Assembly (NCBI RefSeq): GCF_030019085.1
Contig: NZ_JASEFJ010000002.1
Location: forward strand, 62,001-126,000
DNA length: 64,000 nucleotides
Source of the DNA: Methanoculleus sp.
GTDB taxonomy: Archaea; Halobacteriota; Methanomicrobia; Methanomicrobiales; Methanoculleaceae
Direction of reading: 5' to 3'
A program made the position numbers and the translations under genes. Below are positions 5,512-7,516 of the stretch, in pieces. Under the pieces are notes generated by a model. That model had not been told where the DNA came from and searched no databases. It saw nothing but the letters and a program-made list of their open reading frames with translations. Position 1 is the stretch's first letter, and each line of letters begins with the position of its first letter.

Positions 5512-5578
5512 AAAACGCTCTGCTACGGCGATTGTTATAATACGCTGGAGCGTCCTACGGTATGAGGAGATGATAGCG

Positions 5579-7516
5579 ATGAGCAAGCAAACGATCGGCC
5601 TCATCCAGACCGCGGTAAGCGACGACCCCGATCACAACCTCAAGCACGCCCTGGACATGGCAGGGTTGGCAATCTCGAAAGGGGCGCGGATCATCAGTCT
5701 GCCTGAGCTCTACCGGGCCCCTTACTTCCTTCAGTATGAGGATACGGATGCCTCGGCCTACGCTGAGACGATCCCCGGACAATCGACAGAGGCGTTCTCG
5801 GCGCTGGCCAGGGAGCATGGTGCGGTGATAATTCTGCCGATCTACGAGCGGGCCGCGTCCGGTGAATATTATAACTCCGCAGTGGTGATCGATGCTGATG
5901 GTCGGGTGCTCTTCCCTGCATACAGGAAGGTACACCTCCATAATGACCCCCCCATCTACGATAAAAGATACGTCCGCGCGGGCGACCGCTACCGGCTATA
6001 TGACACCCGCTGTGGTCGGATTGCCGTGCTTATCTCCAATGATCAGTGGTTCCCCGAGGCTGCAAGGGCGGTTGCGCTGCGGGGCGCGGAGTTGATCTTC
6101 TATCCGTCCGCAATCGGCCGGGCTGTCGCTGATGAGCCGTTTAAGGGCGATTGGCGTGAGGCGTGGGAGATCGTCCAGCGCAGCCATGCGATTGCAAACG
6201 GCATTCACATCGCTACCGTAAACCGGGTGGGCGAGGAAGGGGGTATCCGTTTCTTCGGGAGTTCGTTCATCGCTGATGCGTTCGGAAATATCATTGCCCG
6301 TGCGAGCGATGCTGATGAAGAGGTTCTCGTCGCAGAGGTTGACCTCTCTATGAATGAGGTTGCCCGGGAAAGGTGGAACTTCTTCCGAGACCGGAGGCCG
6401 GAGACCTACAGGGCGCTCATCCGGAGATTCCCGCCGGATAAGACACCCCACGCATTGGGTTACCGGATGCCTGCAGAGTGGGAACCGCACGACGCAGTGT
6501 GGCTCGCCTGGCCTTACGATCGGGAGATGTTCCCCGACCTTGCCGCCGTGGAATGGAGTTATGTTGAGATCATAGCGGCTCTACGCAGGTCGGAGACCGT
6601 CAACCTCCTTGTCACCGGCGAGCAGATGCGTACCCGTGTTGAGGCAATGCTCCATGAGGATGGCGTCGATGCGTCCGGGGTTCGGTTCCAAATACTCGAT
6701 TATGCCGATGTCTGGTTCCGGGATTATGGGCCGACCTTTGTGGTCAACCGCAGGACAGAGAGCCTTGCGATGGTGCACTGGAACTTTAACGCCTGGGGAG
6801 AGAAGTACCCGGCGCTCGTGAAGGATTCGCAGATCCCGCTCATCATGAACCGTGATCTGAACCTCCCTGTGTTCACCCCCGGTATCGTGCTCGAAGGCGG
6901 TTCGGTCGAGGTTAACGGTGCCGGGACGGCGATCGTGACGGAGTCGTGCCTCCTGAATCCCAACAGGAACCCACGGGGCACACGGGAGGATATCGAGGCT
7001 TATCTGGAGGCATACCTCGGTGTCGGTCATGTCATCTGGCTGAAACAGGGGATCGCCGGCGACGAAACAGATGGTCATGTCGATAACATTGCGCGGTTCG
7101 TGAACCCGACAACCGTTCTCTGCGTCATTGAAGAAGATAGGGATGACGAGAATTACGCGCCGCTGAAGGAGAACTACGAGATCCTCCGATCCTCAACCGA
7201 TCAGGACGGCAAACCTTTAACGGTCATCCCCCTCCCGACACCGGGGAGGGTCGGCGGTGAAGTGCGATTGGCTGCAAGTTACGCGAACTTCTACATAGGA
7301 AACACCGTTGTGCTGGTGCCGACCTTCAAGCACCCCAATGACGTGACGGCCCTTACACGGATCCGACAGGCTTTCCCTGGCAGGAAGGTTATCGGGATCG
7401 ACTGCACCGCACTGGTCGAGGGGTTAGGGGGGATCCACTGTATCACCCTGCAGCAACCGTCGGTTTCGGCTGGAGTCACAGGTCATAGGGTAGAAAAATC
7501 CGCCAGAAAGAATTAA
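5579..7516 (+). CDS. Fusion: nitrilase-superfamily (N-carbamoylputrescine amidase-like) domain + agmatine deiminase
   Basis: Single open frame, start refined to MSKQTIGLIQTAV. N-half LPELYRAPYF / YRKVHLHN / ISNDQWFPEAARAVALRGAELIFYPSAIG; C-half MPAEWEPHDAVWLAWPYD, WFRDYGPTF, EGGSVEVNGAGT, ETDGHVDNIARFV, GGIHCITLQQP. Confidence 0.9.
   Translation: MSKQTIGLIQTAVSDDPDHNLKHALDMAGLAISKGARIISLPELYRAPYFLQYEDTDASAYAETIPGQSTEAFSALAREHGAVIILPIYERAASGEYYNSAVVIDADGRVLFPAYRKVHLHNDPPIYDKRYVRAGDRYRLYDTRCGRIAVLISNDQWFPEAARAVALRGAELIFYPSAIGRAVADEPFKGDWREAWEIVQRSHAIANGIHIATVNRVGEEGGIRFFGSSFIADAFGNIIARASDADEEVLVAEVDLSMNEVARERWNFFRDRRPETYRALIRRFPPDKTPHALGYRMPAEWEPHDAVWLAWPYDREMFPDLAAVEWSYVEIIAALRRSETVNLLVTGEQMRTRVEAMLHEDGVDASGVRFQILDYADVWFRDYGPTFVVNRRTESLAMVHWNFNAWGEKYPALVKDSQIPLIMNRDLNLPVFTPGIVLEGGSVEVNGAGTAIVTESCLLNPNRNPRGTREDIEAYLEAYLGVGHVIWLKQGIAGDETDGHVDNIARFVNPTTVLCVIEEDRDDENYAPLKENYEILRSSTDQDGKPLTVIPLPTPGRVGGEVRLAASYANFYIGNTVVLVPTFKHPNDVTALTRIRQAFPGRKVIGIDCTALVEGLGGIHCITLQQPSVSAGVTGHRVEKSARKN

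Follow-up and report, generated by a model that had tools for sequence, protein, structure and literature searches.

A retained amidase half with a natural Cys-to-Ser substitution, predicted to be a pseudo-amidase, in an AguB-AguA fusion of Methanoculleus

Described amidases, deiminases and their fusions

Enzymes of the nitrilase superfamily use a cysteine as nucleophile, and two glutamates activate this cysteine and position the substrate (PMC4812014, PMC10741476). The wild-type N-carbamoylputrescine amidase of Medicago (MtCPA; PDB 5h8i) is active, and in its laboratory mutant C158S (PDB 5h8k, 5h8l) reactivity is strongly diminished while putrescine is still bound (PMC4812014). Human beta-ureidopropionase C233S is inactive, yet oligomerises on substrate, and a Glu-to-Gln change at the second glutamate of the same enzyme, E207Q, is also inactivating (PMC10741476). 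Fusion of the amidase with agmatine deiminase has been described as well: a fused aguA-aguB gene is known in Ca. Diapherotrites (PMC10407285).

The fused gene analysed here lies in a stretch of 64,000 nucleotides (the window) from Methanoculleus sp. It resembles the AguB-AguA fusions of other Methanoculleus and of Methanothrix in domain order and length, and those of Methanoculleus also in locus, synteny and sequence (71-76% identity), but whereas known fusions keep the Glu-Lys-Cys triad, the second glutamate and a pocket proline, the window protein and its orthologue in one congener (genome G011) do not. The nitrilase half is like MtCPA in fold (TM 0.89), in sequence (~38% identity) and in its triad Glu and Lys, and its natural serine is the same change as C158S; unlike MtCPA, it has Asp for the second Glu, His, Ile and Asn for the pocket Pro, Tyr and Trp, and a fused deiminase. 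Beta-ureidopropionase C233S is likewise a Cys-to-Ser protein of the superfamily, but an engineered one without a fused partner enzyme. The agmatine deiminases 1xkn, 2jer and 6nib share the C-terminal fold and the catalytic Asp, Glu, His, Asp and Cys with the window protein, which differs from them in its N-terminal nitrilase-fold domain and in scoring below the TIGR03380 equivalog cut-off. A search of the open-access literature returned no description of a naturally inactivated but retained nitrilase or amidase half, and the variant seen here is apparently new.

A fusion that is ordinary for the genus

The open reading frame runs uninterrupted through 645 codons and a stop, and homologues align with the protein from residue 1 (Table 1). 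As the preliminary description held, this one frame joins an amidase-like to a deiminase-like domain: Pfam places CN_hydrolase (PF00795) at residues 6-260 (E 1e-50) and PAD_porph (PF04371) at residues 296-627 (E 2e-118), and the NCBIfam models for AguB and AguA match residues 6-280 and 289-627, respectively. Both NCBIfam matches fall below their equivalog cut-offs, with 246.9 bits against 410 for TIGR03381 (AguB), for which the window protein was the one fusion scored, and 284.1 bits against 381.8 for TIGR03380 (AguA). A single fused copy is present in the window genome, which has a size of 1.91 Mb and a completeness of 99.6%.

Table 1 Features of the fused gene, with positions counted from the first nucleotide of the window.
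Feature	Position	Strand	Remarks
aguB-aguA fusion gene	5579..7516	+	645 aa, nitrilase half Cys-to-Ser; same-locus orthologue in Methanoculleus congeners
GAGGAG, probable ribosome binding site	5564..5569	+	9 bases 5' of ATG 5579; read from sequence
N-carbamoylputrescine-amidase-like nitrilase domain, predicted pseudo-amidase	5579..6430	+	Residues 1-284; PF00795, TIGR03381 (sub-cut-off), AF2, fold match
Glu43, triad Glu (MtCPA Glu48), retained	5705..5707	+	
Lys117, triad Lys (MtCPA Lys121), retained	5927..5929	+	
His121 for invariant Pro (MtCPA Pro125, pocket wall)	5939..5941	+	94/94 others Pro; shared with G011
Ile126 for aromatic Phe/Tyr (MtCPA Tyr130, pocket wall)	5954..5956	+	
Asp128 for invariant second catalytic Glu (MtCPA Glu132)	5960..5962	+	94/94 others Glu; Asp in G011 too
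Ser153 (TCC) at nucleophile Cys position (MtCPA Cys158)	6035..6037	+	94/94 others Cys; shared with G011
Asn154 for Tyr/Phe/Trp (MtCPA Trp159, oxyanion backbone position)	6038..6040	+	Window species only; Tyr in G011
Ser177 for invariant Thr, adjoining pocket wall	6107..6109	+	
Arg265 for Gly/His/Ser/Asn beside swapped pocket Trp266 (MtCPA Cys276/Trp277)	6371..6373	+	Shared with G011
Agmatine deiminase domain, predicted active	6464..7459	+	Residues 296-627; PF04371, TIGR03380 (sub-cut-off), fold match
Asp382, deiminase active-site Asp (WFRDYGP)	6722..6724	+	Invariant, retained
His500, deiminase active-site His (DGHVDN)	7076..7078	+	Invariant, retained
Cys621, deiminase nucleophile (GGIHC)	7439..7441	+	Invariant, retained

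The fused gene stands beside the same mntP/proS block in four further genomes (G011, G003, G034 and G026) as in the window, and because the locus is shared, the window gene is an orthologue of theirs and not a paralogue. The AguB-AguA fusion is therefore ordinary for the genus, being a same-locus orthologue across Methanoculleus, and it is present in Methanothrix too. The assignment to Methanoculleus agrees with the protein matches, which are the same for the same-genus genomes as for records that bear this name. The domain order, opposite to the order of the pathway, had been taken as meaningful; this does not hold, because Woesearchaeota, Algoriphagus and Chthoniobacter encode the two enzymes as split genes side by side with the amidase first, so that the fusion merely retains the operon order. 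More broadly, in DPANN, Bacteroidota and Verrucomicrobiota relatives (loci L048-L081) the amidase gene mostly precedes a neighbouring, separate deiminase gene, and stops divide the two; this arrangement suggests an amidase-first operon as the origin of the archaeal fusion. In a further genome (L117, G001:C1:229318-233073), fragments matching residues 189-249 and 597-632 lie 3' of the fused gene and are apparently the remains of a decayed duplicate second copy.

Serine at the nucleophile position and further changes in the amidase pocket

Alignment of the nitrilase half to Medicago CPA (PDB 5h8i/5h8k) pairs Ser153 with Cys158, Glu43 with Glu48, Lys117 with Lys121 and Asp128 with Glu132. The serine reported for the nucleophile position was re-read from the sequence and from the homologue alignment, and the Glu and Lys regions are present as described, so the Glu-Lys-Cys triad of AguB is left with Glu43 and Lys117 and has Ser153 for its cysteine. 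All 94 other distinct homologues, fused or side by side, have the cysteine; they come from Methanoculleus, Methanothrix, Methanoregulaceae, Woesearchaeota, Algoriphagus, Verrucomicrobiota and others. The exception is the congener G011, a complete genome of 1.98 Mb, where the serine is specified by the same TCC codon in a protein 86.5% identical to that of the window.

A codon-pattern scan of 394 Halobacteriota genomes, which required the rest of the DQW[FY]PE motif, recovered a TCN serine codon in two of them, the window genome and G011, and codons starting with A, C or G at the nucleophile site in none. Conservation of Ser153 across Methanomicrobiales, which the preliminary description had posed as a question, is thereby ruled out, as the serine is confined to two species while all other Methanoculleus, Methanothrix and Methanoregulaceae homologues keep the cysteine. 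A Cys-bearing paralogue elsewhere in the window genome was also considered and rejected: the other CN_hydrolases of the genome are a 267-aa Nit-like protein and NadE, and no second AguB was found among them. The Nit-like protein (contig C11) has an intact triad, is ~31% identical, and has deaminated-glutathione amidase as its best NCBIfam match, below cut-off.

The nitrilase (glutaminase) domain of NadE in the window genome (L147:79-1716 (-), G000 contig C1) has itself lost its nucleophile, with Gly in place of Cys (VVIGERI, compared with VVICEDV in PDB 4f4h). This Gly recurs in each of the six genomes of the genus that were checked, among them the window genome, and about 18 residues directly after it are missing in five of the six; G036, the one genome checked from another genus of the family, has Cys. 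The NadE of the window genome is, on these sequence features, probably ammonia-only.

The substitution at residue 153 is accompanied by others, and the preliminary description had overlooked Asp128 and the remaining altered pocket residues. Exactly four substitutions at nitrilase-half positions invariant in the 94 other homologues are common to the window protein and G011, namely Pro121His, Glu128Asp, Cys153Ser and Thr177Ser, and F126I and G265R are likewise common to the two species. The equivalents of positions 121, 128 and 153 have been named catalytic or pocket-forming (PMC4812014), residue 177 adjoins two pocket-wall residues, and the Trp beside Arg265 is a pocket Trp inserted by the dimer partner. 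The second conserved glutamate of AguB is consequently Asp128 in both species, from different codons (GAT/GAC), and the codons for Arg265 differ as well (AGG/AGA). When 15 pocket positions were defined from the literature on the plant enzyme, and hence independently of the sequences compared, seven of them differed when the window protein was compared with that of a congener 75% identical to it, and none differed between a Methanoculleus and a Methanothrix fusion (L003 and L030) at 63% identity; the pocket holds a significant excess of the shared changes (Fisher p ~0.001-0.03, depending on the reference set). The pocket also differs between the window species and G011, at positions 154 and 182, which is more than usual for similarly diverged Cys-bearing pairs. 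Asp155, Gln156, Trp157 and Trp266 are kept alongside Glu43 and Lys117. With the nucleophile, the second glutamate and the pocket all changed, the amidase half is very probably without amidase activity.

Retention of the amidase half and competing explanations

The nitrilase half has nevertheless been maintained. Its dN/dS between the window species and G011 is 0.176 (bootstrap 0.11-0.27) at a dS of ~0.47, compared with a median of 0.18 for Cys-bearing congener pairs, 0.05-0.36 for neighbouring genes and 0.115 for the deiminase half, and the frame is open, with no frameshift, in both species; pseudogene decay is opposed by the dN/dS. Asp128 and Arg265 have been preserved in both species across synonymous differences in their codons. 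An AF2 model of the half is confident (pLDDT 91.3, pTM 0.91), and the PDB structures that it matches best are MtCPA (5h8i) and the C158S mutant of that enzyme. Loss of the triad cysteine and of the second glutamate, together with purifying selection on the domain, is the pattern of a pseudoenzyme. Faster evolution of the nitrilase half alone is unsupported, since the stem branch to the two-species clade is long in both halves, which were then constrained; the whole protein, deiminase included, may have shifted.

In the deiminase half, the catalytic set of the PAD_porph domain is complete (Asp382, Glu439, His500, Asp502 and Cys621), in agreement with the earlier observation that its motifs, including the GGIHC cysteine, are kept, and the fold matches 1xkn (TM 0.90) and 2jer (TM 0.85). 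The window protein and G011 have three departures in common, D496E, D503N and M554T, of which the first two match residues found in other agmatine deiminases in the alignments. The deiminase half is accordingly most likely competent, and is predicted to be active from its catalytic residues and fold. Two further substitutions occur in G011 only (L083 / L112:7746-9680), D498G (DETGGHVDN) and G441S (LEGSS); 93-94 of 94 homologues have the conserved residue at these two positions, and the deiminase tip branch of G011 is longer (0.124 vs 0.021 for the window); the G011 deiminase may also be changing.

We consider it likely that a pseudo-amidase domain has been retained on a live deiminase in a clade so far sampled by two species, where it may serve as scaffold or sensor. 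A normal Methanoculleus fusion would have had its amidase active site dismantled in the common ancestor of the two species, through Cys153Ser, Glu128Asp, Pro121His, Phe126Ile, Thr177Ser and Gly265Arg, without loss of the nitrilase fold. The deiminase half, with catalytic residues and fold intact, would most likely still deiminate agmatine to N-carbamoylputrescine, and the N-terminal half, having lost its nucleophile and second glutamate, would no longer hydrolyse that product but would persist folded, as an oligomer scaffold for the deiminase and/or as a pocket that, without hydrolysing it, would detect a polyamine-like ligand and modulate the deiminase in response; putrescine, if needed, would come from a separate agmatinase. 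The earlier proposal of a dead nitrilase half on an active deiminase thus stands as regards the altered nucleophile, second glutamate and pocket and the intact deiminase residues, but not as a Methanomicrobiales-wide property. More specifically, the Ser/Asp/His/Arg pocket could be a dedicated sensor for an amine, such as N-carbamoylputrescine or putrescine, through which the activity or oligomer state of the deiminase is set allosterically, a tentative proposal that we regard as unlikely.

An alternative interpretation is that the N-terminal half is a re-specialised hydrolase, in which the Ser153/Asp128 pocket acts on another substrate, either by a reaction of a different kind or as a slow amidase or esterase. 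The serine could conceivably support weak or altered chemistry because Glu43 and Lys117 are kept, as are Asp155, Gln156, Trp157 and Trp266, and concentration of the changes in the pocket under purifying selection on the domain, with acceleration of the whole gene on the stem branch and later constraint, is compatible with neofunctionalisation. We consider this quite unlikely, however, because Cys-to-Ser changes inactivate or strongly weaken the nitrilase-superfamily enzymes tested (PMC4812014, PMC10741476), a Glu-to-Gln change at the second glutamate inactivates beta-ureidopropionase, and pocket positions 154 and 182 still differ between the window species and G011.

The polyamine pathway supplies a further alternative. 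Each of the 18 genomes examined encodes a pyruvoyl arginine decarboxylase, a single agmatinase-family protein and two members of the deoxyhypusine synthase family, and a PF01564 spermidine synthase is absent from all 18; the agmatinase of the window genome scores above the TIGR01230 cut-off. Since agmatinase could make putrescine without AguB, loss of the amidase would be tolerable, and the amidase half might be in the course of recent loss, made redundant by agmatinase and carried as dead weight needed for folding. The presence of the agmatinase-family gene in every genome examined, its position adjoining aIF5A in the window genome and the loss of the nitrilase nucleophile from NadE in the same genus are in keeping with such a loss, but a dN/dS of 0.18 over a dS of ~0.47, with no frameshift in either species, makes it decidedly unlikely. 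Moreover, agmatinase leaves unexplained why just the clade of the window species and G011 lost the amidase, as congeners with the same agmatinase keep the cysteine. Putrescine carbamoyltransferase, considered as an alternative consumer of N-carbamoylputrescine, gave no match above the TIGR04384 cut-off. Finally, a sequencing or assembly error or a single-strain mutation, for which it could be said that no other homologue has the serine, can be set aside with near certainty, because the independent, complete G011 genome has the identical TCC codon in an 86.5% identical protein with five more shared changes in or beside the pocket.

The agmatinase gene directly adjoins aIF5A in the window genome (L140:1942-3191, G000 contig C4). 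The agmatinase-like gene of Haloferax, which has the same aIF5A-adjacent arrangement, is essential there. This adjacency in Haloferax led to a proposed role in aIF5A modification (PMC5178350). The window genome has two deoxyhypusine-synthase-family proteins and no PF01564 match, which bears on the identity of the amine donor for aIF5A.

In the window protein, the Cys-to-Ser change that crystallographers introduce to study the enzyme has arisen naturally, and the same-locus relatives of this protein within the genus, 71-76% identical, keep every catalytic residue. Such matched pairs bear on how a domain with a catalytic function turns into a partner without one and on whether a retired nitrilase half still binds its ligand. 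If the sensor reading is true, a two-step putrescine synthase would have become a feedback-regulated one-step enzyme. The finding also bears on how methanogens divide agmatine among aIF5A modification, putrescine and other uses.
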